NCBI RefSeq assembly: GCF_002277895.1 | Contig: NZ_CP023000.1 | Location: forward strand, 558,001-622,000 | Source of the DNA: Rhizobium sp. 11515TR | GTDB taxonomy: Bacteria; Pseudomonadota; Alphaproteobacteria; Rhizobiales; Rhizobiaceae | Length of the DNA stretch: 64,000 nt | Reading direction: 5' to 3' | In this document: positions 32,525-40,831 of the stretch, in pieces | Layout of the letters: every line of letters begins with the position of its first letter | Numbering within the stretch: position 1 is the first letter of the stretch | The notes under the pieces: generated by a model | What the model saw: the letters and a program-made list of their open reading frames with translations, nothing else | The model's database searches: none | What the model was told of the DNA's origin: nothing | Made by a program: the position numbers and the translations under genes

Positions 32525-32592
32525 AATTAGAGCCTCTCGGCGTTTCCTCGAATCGTGAAAACGCCATGCACTTTCCTGGAATTGCTCTAATT
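32525..32592. repeat. Nested intergenic palindrome at the 3' end of the kinase gene
   Basis: Outer arms AATTAGAGC (32525-32533) and GCTCTAATT (32584-32592) enclose an inner hairpin with arms GGCGTTT and AAACGCC (32539-32565). The layout matches intergenic palindromes common in Rhizobium. It overlaps the last codons of the histidine kinase and may serve as its transcription end point. Confidence 0.6.
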
Positions 32593-33972
32593 TTCCAGCG
32601 CCGCCTGCTTGTCCTTGACCAGCCGCGTCGGCAAATTGACGGTGACGGACAGCCCTCCGAGGCTGGAGCGGGCGAGCGTCAGCTTGCCGTCATAGGCTTC
32701 GACCAGATCCTTGGCGATCGCCAGGCCGAAGCCGGTTCCGGCGATGCTTTCGTCGAGCCGCCTGCCGCGCCGGATGAAAGCCATTTCCGCATCCTCGGGC
32801 AAACCCGGGCCATCGTCCTCGATGCACAGTTCCACGCCCTCGGGCAACTGCGATAGGCGAACCTTGACCTTGCCGGCCGCCCATTTCCTGGCATTGTCGA
32901 TCAGATTGCCGGTGATGTCGGCAAAATCCGCCTCATCGATCGCCAGCCACATCTCCGGCGGCGCCACGAGCTCGAAATCGATTTTCCGCTCGGCCGAGAG
33001 ACGACGCATGACCGAGATGATCTTCTGGAGATCGGCGCTGGCATCCATGACGCCGACGGTATGGGCGGCGGCGAGGCTTGCGCGGGTTTGCGCAAGCGTT
33101 CGCTTGATCTGCGCCTCCATCCGGCTCACCTCCGTCTGGATCGCCGCAGCCCGCTCCGACATGCCCTCCTCGGAGAGAATACGCGCGGTCGCCTCAAGCG
33201 CTGCGAGCGGGGTCTTCAGGCCATGCGCGAGATCGCCGGCGCGCGCACGCGCCTGTGTCAGTTGGGTTTCGCGCGATGCGAGCAGGCCGTTGAGGTCGTC
33301 CACGAGAGGCTGAACTTCTCGCGGAAACTGACCGGTGATCTTGCGTGCGGATCGCTCCTGTACCGCCATCAGGGCCGTGCGCAGGTCATTGAGCGGCCGC
33401 AACCCATAGCGCAGGAATACCACGACTGCCCCGATCAGGGCGACTGACAGCACGCCAAGAGAGGGCGCCATGGCATAGAAGAAGCGCCAGCGCGCCGGTG
33501 CAAGCTCGCTGTTGTCGAGCGCCATGACGATATCGACCATCTGGTCGCCCGTGGCCGAGGGGATCGAAATGGACCGTTCGACGGCGAGAAGACGGCTGCC
33601 GTTTGGCCCTTTCATATCCGTCGCCCGTCCGGCATCGCGAGGCCGGGCACGCAGCCAAGGCAAGTTCTGCTCCCAGAGCGATTGGGAGCGCAGCTCGACA
33701 GTGCCATTGCGGCCGACCTGCCAATAGAAGCCACCATTCGGAATGCCGAAGCGGGGATCGGTCGGCGTGTCATCAAGGAAGAGCTGATTGGACGAATTGA
33801 TATCGACTGCGGCCAGAAGAACGCGCAACTCTTCGTCTATCTCCGAGAGGGCGAGAGCCCTGACGGCCAGCCCGGATATGGCATTGATGCCGACCCCCGC
33901 CAGAAAGGTTGCGACGATGATCGCCACCACCGAACCCAGCAGCAACCGCCCTCGCAGCGAGAACGGTGTCAT
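32587..33972 (-). CDS. Sensor histidine kinase (FeuQ/PhoQ-like)
   Basis: Membrane histidine kinase, 461 aa. One span is near residues 9-30, a periplasmic sensor domain covers about 35-165, a second span about 168-188, then a HAMP-like linker. The phosphorylated histidine is H250 in AGDLAHGLKTPLAAL, and the ATP domain has NLIDNARKWA, EDDGPGLPED and GTGFGLAIAKDLVEAYDG. The start overlaps the response regulator stop by four bases (ATGA). The order PepSY-like gene, regulator, kinase resembles feuN-feuP-feuQ of Sinorhizobium, which responds to osmotic or envelope state. Orthology is likely but not proven. Confidence 0.88.
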   Translation of the reverse strand: MTPFSLRGRLLLGSVVAIIVATFLAGVGINAISGLAVRALALSEIDEELRVLLAAVDINSSNQLFLDDTPTDPRFGIPNGGFYWQVGRNGTVELRSQSLWEQNLPWLRARPRDAGRATDMKGPNGSRLLAVERSISIPSATGDQMVDIVMALDNSELAPARWRFFYAMAPSLGVLSVALIGAVVVFLRYGLRPLNDLRTALMAVQERSARKITGQFPREVQPLVDDLNGLLASRETQLTQARARAGDLAHGLKTPLAALEATARILSEEGMSERAAAIQTEVSRMEAQIKRTLAQTRASLAAAHTVGVMDASADLQKIISVMRRLSAERKIDFELVAPPEMWLAIDEADFADITGNLIDNARKWAAGKVKVRLSQLPEGVELCIEDDGPGLPEDAEMAFIRRGRRLDESIAGTGFGLAIAKDLVEAYDGKLTLARSSLGGLSVTVNLPTRLVKDKQAALEN

Positions 33973-34640
33973 GATGGCGGCGCCTCGCGCGGGATGATGT
34001 AGCCCTGGCCGCGCCGGGTCTCGATGACGGTGCCATCGAACTTGCGCCTGAGGCGTGCGACGACCACTTCGAGCGCGTTCGACAGAAGCTCCGTCTCTTC
34101 GTCATAAATGCTGTCGGCGATCTGCGTTCGGGAAAGCACGGTGCCGGCATTGTGCATCAGATAGGCGAGAAGCCGGTATTCCAGCGCCGTCACCTGAACC
34201 GGCTGCCCGCGAAACGAAACGGTGCGCTGGCGTGTATCGAGCTCCAGCACGCCATTGGAAAGGATCGGGGAGGACTGCCCCGCGGCGCGGCGCATCAGGG
34301 CGCGCACGCGGGCCAGAAGCTCCTCCATACGGAAGGGCTTGGTCAGATAATCGTCGGCACCCGCATCCATGCCGTCGACCTTGTCGCGCCAGCCATCTCG
34401 CGCCGTCAGTATGATAACAGGCATGCCCCGCTTTTCTGCGCGCCAACGCCGCAGCACCGTCAGGCCGTCAAGCTTCGGAAGTCCGAGATCGAGGATGACA
34501 AGATCAAAATGCTCAATATCGCCGCGATACCAGGCTTCCTCGCCGTTGCTCACGGTTGAGACGACATAATGCTGATCCTCCAGGCAGCGGCGCATATCCG
34601 CCACGATACTGGGCTCATCCTCAGCAATCAGAATGCGCAT
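33969..34640 (-). CDS. OmpR-family response regulator (FeuP/PhoP-like)
   Basis: Two-domain regulator, 223 aa. Receiver domain has the acidic pair in LIAEDEPS, phospho-acceptor D51 in VILDLGLPKLDG, Thr in ILTAR and Lys in DYLTKPF. The C-terminal winged helix spans about 125-220 with VTALEYRLLAYLMHNAG and VVVARLRRKFDG. It is co-translated with the kinase (four-base overlap) and lies two bases after the PepSY-like gene, so all three are one operon. Confidence 0.9.
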   Translation of the reverse strand: MRILIAEDEPSIVADMRRCLEDQHYVVSTVSNGEEAWYRGDIEHFDLVILDLGLPKLDGLTVLRRWRAEKRGMPVIILTARDGWRDKVDGMDAGADDYLTKPFRMEELLARVRALMRRAAGQSSPILSNGVLELDTRQRTVSFRGQPVQVTALEYRLLAYLMHNAGTVLSRTQIADSIYDEETELLSNALEVVVARLRRKFDGTVIETRRGQGYIIPREAPPS

Positions 34641-34642
34641 TC

Positions 34643-34969
34643 TCAGCGTCTCTCGATCACGGCGAGCGTCGCGCCGTCGAGTACTATATCACCACGTTTG
34701 CCATCCGGCTTCAACACACGCACGGCGTAAGCCTGACGCCCGGCCCGGCGCACCCGCTTGATTCGCAGCACCTTGCCCGGCATCTCGCGCGCAACGACCG
34801 CATAGATGTCGCGCAGCGGCCGCAAACTGCCGGCATCTTCGACCAGAACACTGCTATGCGAACGAGCTAATACCTGCATGCCTGGCGAGCTCAGCAAAGC
34901 CGCCACCAAGAGAACGGACAGCCAGCGGGGCCAGCCAGCTCTTCGCCCGAATATGCGCAATGATATCAA
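34643..34969 (-). CDS. Small exported PepSY-like protein (FeuN-like position)
   Basis: Protein of 108 aa at most; the TTG at 34969 is a weak start and the TTG at 34960 has better spacing to AAGGA. After a basic stretch comes a signal peptide, WLSVLLVAALLSSPGMQVLA, so it should be periplasmic. The rest (ILREM-like helix DIYAVVAREMPGKVLRIKRV, then YAVRVLKPDGKRGDIVLDG) looks like a single PepSY module. Small PepSY proteins upstream of such regulators often restrain the sensor kinase; FeuN does this for FeuQ. That role here is inferred from position only. Confidence 0.7.
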   Translation of the reverse strand: MISLRIFGRRAGWPRWLSVLLVAALLSSPGMQVLARSHSSVLVEDAGSLRPLRDIYAVVAREMPGKVLRIKRVRRAGRQAYAVRVLKPDGKRGDIVLDGATLAVIERR

Positions 34970-35087
34970 TCCTTCTTTCGAGAGGGCTCGCAGGGCTCGA
35001 CCTGCAGCAAACCAAGCATAGCTTTCCCAACATTACAATTCACTGACAACGCCCGTAAGAGAGCTGCAAATTGAAGGGTGTATAAGC

Positions 35088-38000
35088 ATGGGCAGATGGC
35101 ACGCTGATTGTGCCAAGTTTCGTTCCGCAGAAGTTACCATGACTATCCAGATTTCGTCGATTACCCCAAATGCCAGCCTCTCGGTTTCCTCAGGCGGCAT
35201 TCGGCCTGAGTTCGCCCGCAATGAAACCCTGGTGGACATCTTCAAGGCAACGGTCGCCCGCAGCCCCGACAAGACGGCACTCAGCCTGATCGGAACCGAC
35301 CAGGCGATGACCTATGCCGAGCTCGACCGGCTCTCCGATGAGGCGGCGCGCGCGCTGAGCCGTCGCGGCATCGGCCCCGGCGATTTCGTCGGCCTTTGGT
35401 TCCAACGCTCCCTTGAGCTACATGTCGCGCTTCTGGCGATTCTCAAGGCCGGAGCTGCCTACATTCCCTTCGATGCGTCTGCTCCTGCCGATCGCGTGGC
35501 CGTCAGTCTCGCCGATTGCGGCGCGAAATGGCTGCTGACGCATGACGAAAAGGCGGCCCTCGCACCCGAATCCGACGGCCAGACCCTGATCCTCAAGACA
35601 CTCCTTGCAGAAGACGATGATGGTGTCGCGCCGCGCGCCGCCGTTCACGACGATCCCGCCTATGCCATCTACACCTCCGGCTCCACGGGCAAGCCGAAGG
35701 GCATCGTCATCACGCACCGGAACATCTGCCATTATCTGCGGGCGGGTAATGACGTCCTCGGCATGGTCGAATCGGATGTTGTCCTGCAGCAGGCTTCGGT
35801 CGCCTTCGACCTTTCGCTCGAAGAGATATTCGTTCCCTATCTGGTCGGTGCGACGCTGAAAGTGGCGACATCCGCCGTCATGGCCGAGCTGGACAGGCTC
35901 GCAGATGTGCTGGAAGCGGAAAAGATCACGGTCATTGACACCGTGCCGACGCTGCTCACCATGCTGGAACGCGATGTCGAAAGCCTGCGCGTCATCATCG
36001 TCGGCGGCGAGGCCTGCCCTCCGGCAATCGTCAGCCGCTTCTCCAAGCCGGGCCGACGCCTGATCAATACCTACGGCCCGACTGAGACGACGGTGGTCGC
36101 GACCTACGCGGAACTCGATTCTTCCCGACCGATCACGATCGGCTGCCCCATCGCCAACACGACTGCCTACGTCGTCGACGAAAACCTGCAGCTCGTTGCT
36201 CGCGGCGATACCGGCGAATTGCTGATCGGCGGACCGGGCGTTGCTGCCGGCTACAGAAACCTGCCGCAGCTGACCGCCGCGAAGTTCATCGCCAACCCCT
36301 TTGCCGGCCATGACGACCCGGTGCTTTACCGCAGCGGCGACGCTGTTCTGATGGACGAGGAAGGGCAGCTCCATTTCCTCGGACGCATCGACGACCAGGT
36401 CAAGATTCGCGGCTATCGCATCGAGCTCGGCGAGATCGAAACCGTCGTCGGCGAACTTCCTGACGTGAAGGCCGCATCCGTCGTCGTCCATCGGCCGCCG
36501 GATGGTGAGGAGATGCTGGTCGCCCACATCGTTACCACGGGCAGCAGCTTCGATCGCGACAAGGCGCGCGCCGTGCTTGCAGCCAAGCTGCCGCCCTACA
36601 TGGTGCCGGCCGCCTGGCATAGCCATGTCTCGCTGCCGCGGCTTCCCTCCGGCAAGATCGACCGCAAGACGCTTGCCGCCATTCCGCTGGTGGCCGATCA
36701 GCCAACCCAGGCACAAGAGCCGCCGCGCACGTGGACAGAAGCACAGCTGCTGAAGGCCGCCACGGAAGCGCTTCGGCTGCGCTCAATCGGTTTCGAAGCG
36801 GACTTCTTCACCGAGCTCGGCGGCCATTCCATGCTGGCGGCGCGTTTTGTTTCCGAAGTACGCAAGATCCCGCTGCTCGCCAGCATTGCCCTGCGCGACG
36901 TCTATGCCGGCCGCACCCTGCGCGGCATTGCTGCTCTCCTGGAGCAGCGCGTAGAGAGCACCTCGGGGCAGGAGCGCAAGAATTTCGAACCGGTGCCGTT
37001 ACGCCGGCGTTTTCTCTGCGGTCTCGCTCAGGCCGTGGTATTGCCCTTCATCGTTGCGATCGCAACGTTGCAATGGATCGGCCTGCTGCTCGCCTCGATC
37101 CTGCTGATCGACGACGGTGCATCGGTCTGGAATGAAATCCTCATTCTCGGCGGCGTCTATCTCGCTCTCAATCTTGGCGAGAAGCTGCTCGTCGTAGCCC
37201 TCAAATGGCTCGTCATCGGCCGCACAAAGCCCGGTGTGTATCCGCTCTGGGGCACCTATTATTTCCGCATCTGGCTGATGCAACGCATCGTCCAGCTCAC
37301 CGCTCCGAAATTCCTCAAAGGTTCGCCGCTAATCCGCGTCTATATGCGCGCACTCGGCGCCAAGGTCGGCAAGGATGCGATGATCGACGAGTTCGAGGAA
37401 GGCGCGATCGACCTTGTGCGCATCGGCGCAAGATCCAGCCTCGGCGTCAAGATCAAGCTCGCCAATGTCGAAGTCATCGGCAATGAGATCCATGTCGGCA
37501 CGATCGATATCGGCGAAGGCGTGCAGGTCGGCAATGGCTCCGTTATCGGCCATAACGTCAAGATCGACGACGGCGCCGTCATCGGCGATCTGACGGCGAT
37601 TGCCGCTGGAACGCATGTGGAAGCCCATACGCGCTGGGACGGTTCGCCGGCGCGCGAGACGGGTCATGTAGAGCACGAGGACGTGCCCGCTCATCCGGAG
37701 CTTGGAACCGCCGGACGCGTCTTCCAGTTCGCAGCCTATTTCGTTGCCTACAATCTCAGCCTCGTCGTCGGCCTGCTTCCGATCTTCCCGGCCTTCTATC
37801 TGTTCTCCGCCGTGCAGGAGCTCTACGCACCGGGATCGGACGAAGCTCTGTCCTGGGGAATGATCGCCGCGCTCTCCTGGCCGGCCGCCTTCCTGCTGAT
37901 CGTCGTGTCCATGGCTGTTGTCGTGGCGCTCAGATGGGTGCTGCTGCCTCGCGTCGTGCCGGGCCGCTACTCCATCTTCGGCAATCTCTATTTCCGCAAA

Positions 38001-39182
38001 TGGGTTGTCGGCCTGACCACCGAGGCCATGCTGGAAACCCTGAATTCGCTCTACGCCACCGTCTTCATGCGCAATTGGTACCGTCTGATGGGGGCCAAGA
38101 TCGGCAAGGGCACGGAGATTTCGGCAAACTTCGCCGGTCGATACGACCTTATCGAAATGGGCCGCGACAACTTCATCGGTGACGAGACCATCTTCGGCGA
38201 CGAGGAAATCCAGAACGGTTGGATGATACTCAAGCGCCTTAAGACCGGTGATCGCTGCTTCTTCGGCAACTCCTCCGTCATCTCGCAGGGTGCCGTGATC
38301 GAAAGCGATTCGCTCATCGGTATCAAGACGCGCCTGCCCGACTCCCTGCACGTCAAGTCTGGCGAAACCTGGTGCGGCAGCCCCGCTTTCCAGTTCCCGA
38401 CGCGCGAGAGGCTGCAGGCCGCCGCCAACACCACCTATGCACCGCCGCTCCGCATGCGCCTTGTACGCATCCTGTTCGAGGCCATGCACACGTCGCTGCC
38501 GACCGCCATCCTCATCGTCATGGCACTTGCCATGTCCGACATGTTGGCCAACGAAATCGACAACGGCGCCTGGGGCAGCCTGTTCTGGACCCTGATGGCC
38601 GCGGGCCTGGCGACCTCTGGTATCCTGTATCTCGTTGCCGTCGCATTCAAATGGACGCTGATTGGCACCTACAAGCCGATGAACCGGCCGATGTGGTCAT
38701 GGTGGGCCATGCGCACCGAAGCCGTCGCGGTCTTCTACGGCGGCCTCGCCAGCAAGATGCTGCTCGACTATCTACGCGGTACGCCCTTCCTGCCCTGGCT
38801 GCTCCGTCCCTTCGGCACCAAGATCGGCCAAGGGGCATGGATCAACAGCACCGATATCTGCGAGTTCGATTGCACCCATATCGGCGACCATGCGGTCCTC
38901 AATATGGGCTCCTGCCCGCAGACCCATCTCTATGAAGACCGCATCATGAAGGTCGGCCGCATCACGATCGGCGACGGCGTCTCCATCGGCTCAGGCAGCA
39001 CCGTGCTTTACGAGGCCAATGTGGGCAATTTCGCCGAAATCGGACTGTTGACACTGGTCATGAAGGGCGAGGCCATCCCGCAAGGAACGTCATGGGTCGG
39101 CGCACCCGCCCAGGCGGTTCAAACCGAGCAAGAGCCGGCTCCCGTTGCTCAGAAAGAGGCCCTGCCCTCCGCCGCAGCGTGA
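35088..39182 (+). CDS. Pls/PosA-type membrane non-ribosomal peptide synthetase
   Basis: Single-module synthetase of 1364 aa (an ATG at 35139 would give 1347). Residues 45-530 are an adenylation domain: core motifs YTSGSTGKPKG (195), FDLSLEEIF (240), NTYGPTETTV, YRSGD, GRIDDQVKIRGYRIELGE and LPSGKIDRK. A carrier domain follows with LGGHS (Ser581). There is no condensation or thioesterase domain; instead about six membrane spans separate three tandem domains with hexapeptide-repeat character (about 755-850, 1000-1110, 1240-1330). This is the design of epsilon-poly-L-lysine synthetase, where the C-terminal part links amino acids through isopeptide bonds. Aligned to GrsA the pocket code reads D-L-E-D-I-G-T-V-V-K, suggesting a basic amino acid. 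A phosphopantetheinyl transferase gene follows at once. Confidence 0.88.
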   Translation: MGRWHADCAKFRSAEVTMTIQISSITPNASLSVSSGGIRPEFARNETLVDIFKATVARSPDKTALSLIGTDQAMTYAELDRLSDEAARALSRRGIGPGDFVGLWFQRSLELHVALLAILKAGAAYIPFDASAPADRVAVSLADCGAKWLLTHDEKAALAPESDGQTLILKTLLAEDDDGVAPRAAVHDDPAYAIYTSGSTGKPKGIVITHRNICHYLRAGNDVLGMVESDVVLQQASVAFDLSLEEIFVPYLVGATLKVATSAVMAELDRLADVLEAEKITVIDTVPTLLTMLERDVESLRVIIVGGEACPPAIVSRFSKPGRRLINTYGPTETTVVATYAELDSSRPITIGCPIANTTAYVVDENLQLVARGDTGELLIGGPGVAAGYRNLPQLTAAKFIANPFAGHDDPVLYRSGDAVLMDEEGQLHFLGRIDDQVKIRGYRIELGEIETVVGELPDVKAASVVVHRPPDGEEMLVAHIVTTGSSFDRDKARAVLAAKLPPYMVPAAWHSHVSLPRLPSGKIDRKTLAAIPLVADQPTQAQEPPRTWTEAQLLKAATEALRLRSIGFEADFFTELGGHSMLAARFVSEVRKIPLLASIALRDVYAGRTLRGIAALLEQRVESTSGQERKNFEPVPLRRRFLCGLAQAVVLPFIVAIATLQWIGLLLASILLIDDGASVWNEILILGGVYLALNLGEKLLVVALKWLVIGRTKPGVYPLWGTYYFRIWLMQRIVQLTAPKFLKGSPLIRVYMRALGAKVGKDAMIDEFEEGAIDLVRIGARSSLGVKIKLANVEVIGNEIHVGTIDIGEGVQVGNGSVIGHNVKIDDGAVIGDLTAIAAGTHVEAHTRWDGSPARETGHVEHEDVPAHPELGTAGRVFQFAAYFVAYNLSLVVGLLPIFPAFYLFSAVQELYAPGSDEALSWGMIAALSWPAAFLLIVVSMAVVVALRWVLLPRVVPGRYSIFGNLYFRKWVVGLTTEAMLETLNSLYATVFMRNWYRLMGAKIGKGTEISANFAGRYDLIEMGRDNFIGDETIFGDEEIQNGWMILKRLKTGDRCFFGNSSVISQGAVIESDSLIGIKTRLPDSLHVKSGETWCGSPAFQFPTRERLQAAANTTYAPPLRMRLVRILFEAMHTSLPTAILIVMALAMSDMLANEIDNGAWGSLFWTLMAAGLATSGILYLVAVAFKWTLIGTYKPMNRPMWSWWAMRTEAVAVFYGGLASKMLLDYLRGTPFLPWLLRPFGTKIGQGAWINSTDICEFDCTHIGDHAVLNMGSCPQTHLYEDRIMKVGRITIGDGVSIGSGSTVLYEANVGNFAEIGLLTLVMKGEAIPQGTSWVGAPAQAVQTEQEPAPVAQKEALPSAAA

Positions 39183-39189
39183 GCGTGGG

Positions 39190-39807
39190 ATGACGGCCCC
39201 TCGATTCGAGGTCGTCCTGACGGTCGCAGATGCGATCGCCATCCTCGTCCGCCCGATGCCTGGCGGGCGAGCGGAGCGTGATCAGATCGCGCAAACAGCC
39301 TTGAGGACAGCTACGCGGCGGGACGATCTTTCCATCTATCGCCGACCGAGCGAGCGGCCGGCGCTAAGGCAGCCCTATCACGAGCTGGGTGTTTCGCTTT
39401 CACATCGCACCGATCTGCTGCTGGCGGGCTTTGCGCCCAATAATGCTGTCGGCGTGGATATAGAGGTCGAAGATATCAACGGCTTCGAGCCGGTAGCGTT
39501 TGCCGCCGACCACTTCTCGCCAAGGGAAGCGGCCGCGGTTACCACGTTCGATAGCGCGATCGCGCTGGAAGTCTGCTACCGCCTCTGGGTCGCCAAGGAG
39601 GCTGCGCTGAAGATCAGCGGCCGCGGCATCTTCGACGGGCTGGACGAACCTGATCTGGCGACCCAACTGAACCTCCTGCGCAGCGATGGCGCGACCATCC
39701 GTCTTGGCGCTGGATCGCGGCTGCCGCCAATTGCGCTCACCGTAACCCGACTTGGCGGGACCGCGGATCAAGCCGTCTATTGCGCCCTTGCCAGGGATAT
39801 GAGCTGA
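39190..39807 (+). CDS. 4'-Phosphopantetheinyl transferase
   Basis: Sfp-type transferase, 205 aa from the ATG at 39190, seven bases after the synthetase stop. It attaches the phosphopantetheine arm of CoA to carrier-protein serines. Diagnostic motifs: ELGVSLSHRTDLLLAGF, AVGVDIEVEDINGF (metal-binding GxDxE), and RLWVAKEAALKISGRG (the WxxKEAxxK motif). The tight spacing shows it is made together with the synthetase, and it very likely activates Ser581 of that protein. Confidence 0.9.
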   Translation: MTAPRFEVVLTVADAIAILVRPMPGGRAERDQIAQTALRTATRRDDLSIYRRPSERPALRQPYHELGVSLSHRTDLLLAGFAPNNAVGVDIEVEDINGFEPVAFAADHFSPREAAAVTTFDSAIALEVCYRLWVAKEAALKISGRGIFDGLDEPDLATQLNLLRSDGATIRLGAGSRLPPIALTVTRLGGTADQAVYCALARDMS

Positions 39808-39883
39808 ACGCCCATTGCTCGATAGGAAGCATTTCGGCCGGCACGACGCGGCTTGAAGCCGCGTCCCATCCATACCGTAGATT

Positions 39884-40831
39884 TCACGGCCGCGGCGGCG
39901 CGTCTGTGTCTTGGCGCGAAGCAAACCAGTTTGCCAGGGTCGCGCCGGAAATATTGTGCCAAACGGAGAAGATCGCACTCGGAACGGCAGCGATCGGCGA
40001 GAAATAGGCTGTGGCCAGCGCTGCACCCAGGCCTGAATTCTGCATGCCCACTTCGATCGCCAGCGCCTTGCGTTTGTAGAAATTGAGGCCGAGCACCTTC
40101 GAGGCATAATAGCCGAAGAGGTAGCCGAGACCGTTGTGCAGGACGACAACGGCGAAGATCAGCAGGCCGGACTGCACGATGGCCGCCTTCGAGGCACCAA
40201 CGACGGCGGCAACGATCAGCACGATGCCGATGACGCTGACGAGAGGCAGGACCGGGATCGCCGTACGAACCAGACCGGGCACGGCCTTTTGCGCGATGAA
40301 GCCAAGCAGCAGCGGCACGATGATGACCTGCACGATACTGATGAACATCGACCAGGCATTGACAGGCAGATACTGGCTCGCGAACATCCATACAAGGAAC
40401 GGCGTGACGATGGGCGCTGCGAGCGTCGTCACACTCGTGCAGGCGACCGACAGTGCCACATCGCCACGGGCAAGATAGGTCATGACATTGCTCGAGGTGC
40501 CGCCTGGGCAGCAGCCGACCAGAATGACGCCGGCGGCGACTTCCGGCGGCATCGGAATGATCCGCGTCAAAAGCAGTGCCAGCGCCGGCATGATGCCAAA
40601 ATGTGCGATGACGCCAATCGCGACCTCATGAGGACGACGCGCCAGCTCGCGAAAGTCGTCAACGGATATCGTCAGCCCCATGCCGAACATGATGATACCG
40701 AGAAGGACGACGATCCAGGGTGCGAACTGCTTGAAGACATCGGGCAGGAAAAAGCCGAGAACGGCAAACAGGATGACCCATATGGAAAAAGTCTTGCCGA
40801 CGAAGGCGGAAAAGGATGCCAGGAATTTCAT
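39884..40831 (-). CDS. Bile acid:sodium symporter (BASS) family transporter
   Basis: Membrane protein of 315 aa with about nine or ten spans, starting at the ATG at 40831 behind CCGGAGATTCC. Typical signatures are MFGMGLTISVDDFRELARRP, LVGCCPGGTSSNVMTYLARGD (the crossed-helix region) and EVGMQNSGLGAALATAYF. Bacterial members move pantothenate-like, keto acid or other organic anions with sodium. Substrate unknown. It converges on the phosphopantetheinyl transferase; a short hairpin at 39845-39865 (GACGCGGCTT/AGCCGCGTC) sits between them. Confidence 0.88.
   Translation of the reverse strand: MKFLASFSAFVGKTFSIWVILFAVLGFFLPDVFKQFAPWIVVLLGIIMFGMGLTISVDDFRELARRPHEVAIGVIAHFGIMPALALLLTRIIPMPPEVAAGVILVGCCPGGTSSNVMTYLARGDVALSVACTSVTTLAAPIVTPFLVWMFASQYLPVNAWSMFISIVQVIIVPLLLGFIAQKAVPGLVRTAIPVLPLVSVIGIVLIVAAVVGASKAAIVQSGLLIFAVVVLHNGLGYLFGYYASKVLGLNFYKRKALAIEVGMQNSGLGAALATAYFSPIAAVPSAIFSVWHNISGATLANWFASRQDTDAPPRP

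Follow-up and report, generated by a model that had tools for sequence, protein, structure and literature searches.

A Pls/PosA-family synthetase facing a PhoQ/FeuQ-like two-component system in Rhizobium sp. 11515TR: a possible sensor-controlled cationic oligomer synthetase

Introduction

Two synthetases of the Pls/PosA kind are the closest described relatives of the enzyme considered here: Pls, the epsilon-poly-L-lysine synthetase of Streptomyces albulus, and PosA, the delta-poly-L-ornithine synthetase of Acinetobacter baumannii. According to Patel & Gulick (2023; PMC10522769), no cationic poly-amino acid had been reported before 2023 from bacteria outside the actinomycetes. Here we describe a locus in a stretch of 64,000 nucleotides of Rhizobium sp. 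11515TR (NZ_CP023000.1, positions 558,001 to 622,000; the window, in whose numbering positions are given), where a Pls/PosA-family synthetase gene, followed by a phosphopantetheinyl transferase (PPTase) gene, lies divergent to the genes of a small secreted protein and a two-component system (TCS). We consider it reasonably probable, at about 60%, that the locus encodes a synthetase of the Pls/PosA kind that makes a cationic homo-oligomer under the control of a sensor. The announcement of the 11515TR genome includes a nonribosomal peptide synthetase among its antiSMASH predictions, given there without detail (PMC6256449).

The neighbouring TCS recalls FeuP-FeuQ of Sinorhizobium meliloti. FeuN is predicted to be cotranscribed with feuPQ and is described as a negative modulator of FeuPQ (PMC3616915, PMC5539429); in the second of these reports, insertions in feuQ or feuP lowered competitiveness under polymyxin B, and deletion of feuP raised resistance to NCR247, a peptide of the host.

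Results

The synthetase gene is intact and maintained

The gene at 35139..39182 (+ strand) is confirmed as an intact Pls/PosA-family synthetase gene, encoding 1347 residues with an adenylation (A) domain, a carrier (T) domain and a terminal domain. The NCBIfam model TIGR02353, 'Pls/PosA family non-ribosomal peptide synthetase', matches residues 630-1324 at 556.1 bits against a cut-off of 423.1, so that the family membership proposed in a sequence-only reading of this locus withstood the domain search. This is the sole match over the cut-off in the 11515TR assembly (7,070,317 bases in three contigs, C1 having 4,003,789). The open frame spans 35088-39182 (+), but 35139 was taken as the better start because the annotated homologue of Rhizobium sp. 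CCGE531 begins at the equivalent position.

Pfam places AMP-binding at residues 35-372, AMP-binding_C at 432-506, PP-binding at 537-601 and a hexapeptide match at 791-817, and found no condensation or thioesterase family in the synthetase (E 0.001), in agreement with the earlier description of one adenylation and one carrier domain without either of those. The adenylation domain, taken from the Pfam limits as residues 35-506 (35241..36656, +), includes the A10 lysine K506. The carrier domain (residues 537-601; 36747..36941, +; PF00550 23.6 bits against 20.8) retains its serine, S564 (36828-36830), and the equivalent position is Ser in 129 of 132 aligned rows, the three misses being a PosA fragment that stops short of the site and two wrong-frame rows in which Ser is present once reframed.

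All five genes of the locus are under purifying selection, with dN/dS of 0.01-0.23. The relatives compared were R. tropici SARCC-755, CCGE531 and R. rhizogenes NBRC 13257. The synthetase gave 0.08-0.13, the response regulator 0.01-0.03, the kinase 0.04-0.09 and the small protein 0.09-0.23; the PPTase gave 0.19-0.23 against the first two, and was not found in the 24-kb stretch of the third. Furthermore, the 22 genus copies at least 83% identical to the synthetase, 11515TR counted among them, are all free of internal stops. Because of this and the low dN/dS, we regard the synthetase as maintained rather than present by chance.

An adenylation pocket consistent with a diamino acid

By alignment to PosA, the synthetase has the pocket code DLEDIGTVVK (D224, L225, E228, D267, I287, G289, T311, V319, V320 and K506). 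As a control, the same procedure applied to whole posA of another A. baumannii strain (L176) returned DMEHNGTVSK, which is the published code. PosA was also the best single-A-domain chain in the Protein Data Bank (PDB; 371 bits over residues 15-418), and around the pocket 80 of 165 residues are identical between the two enzymes. The Asp and Glu that bind the alpha- and side-chain amines in this family are present as D224 and E228, the equivalents of PosA D217 and E221; according to PMC10522769, loss of either PosA residue abolished activity, and E221 holds the side-chain amine. Since E228 corresponds to E221 and V320 replaces PosA S313, a diamino acid substrate is likely, while ornithine is not assured.

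The synthetase carries exactly, in its V variant, the signature 'D L E D I G T V T/V/I K', which the available text of PMC10522769 (Patel & Gulick, 2023) gives for Archaea, Rhizobia and Methylobacterium as one of several unique signatures, with no product assigned. The sequence-only reading had called the rhizobial product little explored. This holds in that the available text characterises none; rhizobial members with the same pocket signature have, however, been in print since 2023. DLED-type codes occur in 94 of 112 rows, the synthetase included, in a set that was chosen for closeness to it, is biased to near kin and includes some genomes twice.

The code matched no code tied to a known product, and a literature search for the code strings returned only the bacitracin lysine code. 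We take it to bear some likeness to lysine and beta-lysine codes, which is not decisive. It differs from DMEHNGTVSK of PosA proper (ornithine) and from DGESISVVNK of the epsilon-poly-beta-lysine synthetase, and at the chain-length position it has L225 in place of the Ala of the epsilon-poly-L-lysine (epsilon-PL) synthetase (lysine) or the Phe of PDAP/PDAB synthetases (reference code and rules from the available parts of PMC10522769). The synthetase has no lysine aminomutase beside it, the only TIGR00238 match of the genome sitting on another replicon. The chromosome does carry a lysine-2,3-aminomutase-family gene; as this gene may be EpmB, which is our assumption, it does not decide on beta-lysine. 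Taken with the diaminobutyrate evidence discussed below, the pocket suggests that the monomer would be ornithine, lysine or beta-lysine rather than diaminobutyrate.

The terminal membrane domain and a nearly invariant motif

The terminal domain (residues 630-1324; 37026..39110, +), assigned from TIGR02353, an AlphaFold2 model and its acyltransferase-like first unit, is the presumed membrane and polymerisation part of the enzyme. The model, built for residues 601-1347 from 27 aligned rows (mean pLDDT 84.7, pTM 0.85), predicts three helix pairs and three beta-helix units, much as the membrane spans and three hexapeptide-like domains of the sequence-only reading had anticipated. This layout agrees with the PosA model described in PMC10522769, and the available parts of that source report no experimental structure of the polymerisation part. 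Unit 1, the unit mainly tested, resembles galactoside and maltose O-acetyltransferases with Z of about 8, a middling level for the tool; searches with Foldseek and VIA returned single beta-helix proteins, mostly acyltransferases, at Z of 8.2 or less. A sequence search gave no solved structure that covers the whole terminal domain; the 60 matches listed, of 175, are hexapeptide-type proteins over short stretches.

Within the third unit, the row alignment brings out a motif, N1255-x5-Q1261-x-H1263-x2-E1266-x4-K1271 (38901..38951, +; hereafter QHEK), that is a candidate condensation site. All four of Q1261, H1263, E1266 and K1271 occur in 128 of 132 rows; 125 rows have N1255 too. The four misses comprise two wrong-frame rows, which have all five residues once reframed, one PosA fragment, and L097, a row with an internal stop that retains H, E and K and has a gap at Q. 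The inspected stretches of units 1 and 2 contain no invariant histidine. Judged from this conservation, unit 3 may hold a single condensation site at Q1261/H1263/E1266/K1271.

A divergent TCS with a small secreted protein

Outside the pair of genes described in the sequence-only reading, upstream of the synthetase and on the opposite strand, lie the genes of a small secreted PepSY-like protein (108 aa; 34643..34969, -), an OmpR-class response regulator (223 aa; 33969..34640, -) and a PhoQ/FeuQ-like sensor histidine kinase (461 aa; 32587..33972, -), the latter two identified with Pfam. The small protein has a signal-like N-terminus, judged by eye, and a weak NCBIfam PepSY match (14.8 bits, under the cut-off of 60). 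The nearest NCBIfam models for the regulator are PmrA (201 bits), RppA (198) and PhoP (182), and for the kinase PhoQ (151.5 bits, the next at 92.7), all below their own cut-offs; the PhoP and PhoQ equivalog models would require 336 bits, against 181.6 for the regulator, and 497 bits, against 151.5 for the kinase.

The locus was compared with the best 80 of 261 relatives, a choice that favours near kin. Since all-against-all clustering of neighbouring open reading frames (ORFs) was unusable, antisense ORFs in the high-GC DNA having swamped the result, neighbours were compared with the 11515TR locus proteins as queries, and linkage to the TCS was scored at 150 bits within 3 kb in the 58 of 80 loci with at least 3 kb upstream. 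The TCS and the small protein lie beside the synthetase in 18 of these 58: 12 in named Rhizobium, four in 'Rhizobiales bacterium' isolates (92-97% identity) and two in Labrys. The small protein adjoins the regulator and kinase genes in all 18, and also in L158-L161; of these, L160 repeats L028 and L161 repeats L015, so that only L158 and L159 are new stretches, from two further Labrys-genus genomes with the TCS, L158 having the whole set with the PPTase and L159 lacking the PPTase. The Labrys kinases match the kinase of the 11515TR locus at 604-609 bits, whereas the best other kinase of 11515TR reaches 178; the Labrys kinases therefore belong to the same TCS. In R. tropici CIAT 899 every member of the set is present, together with both copies of the repeat described below, at 97% identity for the synthetase, 87% for the PPTase, 94% for the small protein, 99.6% for the regulator and 97% for the kinase.

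A second set of the same order is found in 11515TR itself (L155, near position 1749708 of C1). Its secreted protein has 84 aa, its regulator and kinase are 50% and 33-34% identical to those beside the synthetase, and it has no synthetase of its own; it is probably the FeuN-FeuP-FeuQ of this strain. Separately, Streptomyces sp. NBC_01527 (L177, 1-7593) has a Pls/PosA gene followed by dat and aspartate kinase genes, with the end of a sensor kinase gene lying about 230 bases upstream. This is a second case of a sensor adjoining such a synthetase.

A repeat between the divergent genes

The divergent genes are separated by 169 bases, in which Rhizobium and Labrys sequences align convincingly over just one stretch of about 50 bases. 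This stretch contains a direct repeat, HTTRCA-N5-CTKRCR, with an 11-bp period (35032..35048, +), drawn from an alignment of 11 intergenic regions and a candidate response-regulator site. The pattern was written after seeing the alignment; a pattern search then gave a second copy in the opposite orientation (35054..35070, -), which had not been used in deriving it. The two copies, both intergenic, are the only matches in the window, against 0.19 expected, and one of 100 shuffles reached two. Across the 80 loci, some of which are short upstream among the 62 without a match, the repeat occurs in 18, exactly those with the TCS, twice in 14 of them and once in L014, L015, L021 and L028, the latter two being the Labrys loci.

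The proposed FeuP site, TTCA-N7-TTCA, has the same 11-bp period (available parts of PMC3616915); no such box was seen on the + strand of the intergenic region, the strand read by eye. A sigma-70 scan of 34500-40200 gave no promoter-like site in the intergenic region, and a terminator-like stem lies at 35097-35115, just before the synthetase start, with five such sites against 3.2 expected in the interval scanned.

A PPTase often, but not always, adjoins the synthetase

The 4'-phosphopantetheinyl transferase gene (205 aa; 39190..39807, +) starts seven bases after the synthetase stop at 39182, as had been noted before, and its product matches PF01648 (ACPS) at 42.7 bits against a gathering score of 25, with its start as in the homologue. 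The stretches GVDIE and WVAKEAALK, kept with small changes among relatives, correspond to the GVD-E and WxxKEA motifs of the PPTase superfamily. It is one of four PF01648 PPTases in the genome. Another of these (270-aa frame; L183, C3 880000-896000) lies about 8 kb from a match in a 2749-aa frame with an aminotransferase-like stretch, probably a separate polyketide synthase/nonribosomal peptide synthetase (PKS/NRPS) locus.

Of the 77 loci whose downstream flank reaches 1 kb or more, 19 have a PPTase adjoining the synthetase; 14 belong to the Rhizobium group and five to Devosia and Rhizobiales metagenome-assembled genomes (MAGs); further adjacent PPTases occur in G087 and R. tropici CIAT 899. 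Among the TCS-bearing loci it is adjacent in 14 of 16 from the Rhizobium group and in neither of the two from Labrys, and L014, L015, L021, L028 and L159 combine the synthetase and TCS without an adjoining PPTase. Six of eight genomes searched are without an adjacent PPTase (G384, G354, G339, G150, G198 and G121), and all six carry another elsewhere, in a frame of at least 241 aa. The PPTase is therefore common beside the synthetase but dispensable there, and the description of synthetase and PPTase as a 'self-contained unit' was too strong. Of the two partners, the TCS is the one more regularly kept next to the synthetase in Rhizobium and Labrys.

Distribution of the synthetase

Within the genus, 28 of 148 genomes have a synthetase match at E 1e-150 or better. 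Of these 28, 22, with 11515TR among them, are the copies at least 83% identical to the synthetase, and six carry instead a distant Pls/PosA gene, 31-33% identical to it, with the code DFEALGTVTK in the three that were read (L145, L146 and L148); two pocket codes within the genus make at least two product classes there likely. More widely, TIGR02353 matches at 1e-40 or better in 51 of 297 sampled genomes of the order and at 1e-60 in 27 of 398 genomes of the phylum sample. In a tree of 60 of 61 chosen rows, L097 having been dropped, the DLED rows form a single group of 49 (support 99) beside two PosA-code rows, for which there is a long-branch warning. The Rhizobium, Labrys and Devosia rows, together with certain Rhizobiales MAG rows, make up one 16-row clade with support 100.

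Discussion

A model for the locus

The family and the conserved pocket Glu are the grounds on which a cationic polymer is proposed. In our model, the PPTase, or another PPTase where it is missing, would place phosphopantetheine on S564, and the A domain would adenylate a diamino acid, its side-chain amine held by E228, and load it onto the carrier. The membrane domain, in which three acyltransferase-like beta-helices would form a pseudo-trimer, probably with a single working site at Q1261/H1263/E1266/K1271, would attach the residue on the carrier to the growing chain through the side-chain amine of the latter, and the short isopeptide oligomer would be released or passed towards the periplasm. 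The TCS and the small secreted modulator, as in FeuN-FeuP-FeuQ, may sense an envelope condition (acid, divalent cations or cationic peptides) and could drive the divergent promoters through the repeat. The intactness of the genes, the domain make-up, the pocket residues and the conservation of linkage and repeat come directly from the sequences; polymer formation, the monomer, the cationic nature of the product, the active site, the signal, the regulation and the biological role are all, in this model, inferred.

Several observations weigh against it. No product, activity or expression has been seen. The beta-helix units match known acyltransferases at middling scores only, and a profile search with unit 3 gave no alignment equating H1263 with the catalytic His of galactoside acetyltransferase (LacA). 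The pocket departs from PosA at L225, D267, I287 and V320, the last standing at the position of PosA S313, whose replacement by Ala cost a 183-fold loss of efficiency with ornithine (available parts of PMC10522769). Sixteen of the 18 repeat loci are close kin, so that it is mainly Labrys, which has one copy, that speaks for repeat and TCS going together. Genome-wide, the strict box is not enriched (two matches against three in a reversed control), and the extended pattern, with up to three mismatches, finds this site alone (control 0); we accordingly claim no genome-wide regulon. Lastly, 40 of the 58 loci with enough flank have no regulator-kinase pair adjoining the synthetase. Among them are Devosia L022 and Rhizobiales MAGs L024 and L025 of the same clade, which do have the PPTase; of the five Devosia and MAG loci with a PPTase, the three with enough flank lack the TCS. 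The TCS is therefore not needed for the enzyme.

These last counts also favour a competing explanation, somewhat unlikely in our judgement, in which the linkage is incidental: the TCS would be an independent FeuPQ-like envelope regulator and the repeats would serve its autoregulation alone. L155, with the same order of small protein, regulator and kinase and no synthetase, and the single repeat copy of the Labrys loci agree with this. However, synthetase and TCS stay together, always divergently oriented, across the R. tropici group, R. rhizogenes-type strains and Labrys, on a Labrys chromosome and on plasmids of different size in Rhizobium, and the R. tropici group has two oppositely facing repeats between the genes.

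It is quite improbable, to our mind, that the enzyme is a non-polymerising relative of Pls and PosA, a membrane aminoacyl transferase under an envelope-stress sensor that would pass a single activated amino acid to some other amine or hydroxyl, on a lipid, a polyamine or an envelope sugar. PhoQ/PmrA-like systems, which this TCS resembles, typically govern envelope decoration, the terminal domain is acyltransferase-like, and the literature searched gave no characterised product for the pocket class. Yet the QHEK motif and the terminal domain are common to PosA itself, and the characterised members make oligomers or polymers, as far as the available parts of PMC10522769 go.

In size, the Leu at the chain-length position falls between Phe and Met or Ala. 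Although the available scheme of PMC10522769 gives Phe for PDAP/PDAB and Met/Ala for PosA/Pls, a diaminobutyrate polymer of the PDAB type is very improbable, since none of 14 genome matches for diaminobutyrate aminotransferase exceeds the cut-off (best 260.8 against 401.6 bits) and none is annotated within 9 kb of a close homologue (in an incomplete gene table), unlike a Streptomyces member with code DFECLSAVTK, which has dat and aspartate kinase genes directly downstream.

Implications

Returning to the cationic oligomer synthetase under sensor control, we hold as rather doubtful the wider proposal that a widespread alphaproteobacterial branch makes a cationic oligomer from a hitherto unassigned monomer class, with synthesis in Rhizobium and Labrys switched by a dedicated PhoQ/FeuQ-like sensor and a small secreted modulator. 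If it were true, the bacterium, on roots or in nodules, would meet stress from acid, low cation levels or cationic peptides of the host with a self-made polycation that coats or conditions its envelope. R. tropici CIAT 899, with the whole set, offers a genetically tractable relative, of a non-pathogenic species, in which to address product, monomer and role, and the nearly invariant QHEK motif is a concrete candidate site for the polymerisation step of the family. The enzyme family and this pocket signature were already known in 2023 (PMC10522769); the open-licence literature searched gave no mention of the sensor linkage, the repeats or the unit-3 motif, which are additions to that extent.

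Comparison with known systems

PosA shares with the 11515TR synthetase the A-T-terminal architecture, the D217/E221 equivalents and the QHEK motif, with 34.8% identity in the terminal domain, and differs in its code, DMEHNGTVSK against DLEDIGTVVK (available parts of PMC10522769). Pls of S. albulus (7WEW) has the same architecture, its A domain scoring 285 bits in the PDB search, but has Ala at the chain-length position in place of Leu. For the DLEDIGTV-T/V/I-K group, the available text of PMC10522769 mentions no locus with TCS and PPTase.

A Sphingomonas parapaucimobilis plasmid (NZ_CP155753; L179, 1117-5678) likewise has a synthetase with a PPTase immediately downstream, followed by a GNAT gene, but the synthetase has the PosA-like code DMEHNGTVTK and no TCS is annotated in the stretch shown; the synthetase-PPTase pairing thus also occurs in another pocket class. 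In two Azospirillum plasmid records (L180 and L122), a fumarate hydratase gene follows the synthetase, and the gene table, which is incomplete, shows neither a PPTase nor a TCS as a direct neighbour of the synthetase.

For the regulatory half of the locus, FeuN-FeuP-FeuQ of S. meliloti is the closest system. It differs in the letters of the repeat, and the probable FeuNPQ of 11515TR is the separate locus L155. The gene order feuN-feuP-feuQ, with a small secreted protein, an OmpR-class regulator and a kinase, is the same as that beside the synthetase, and the repeats share an 11-bp period. Because of the S. meliloti feuP and feuQ phenotypes, acid, cation or cationic-peptide stress would be the foremost candidate conditions for the 11515TR sensor.

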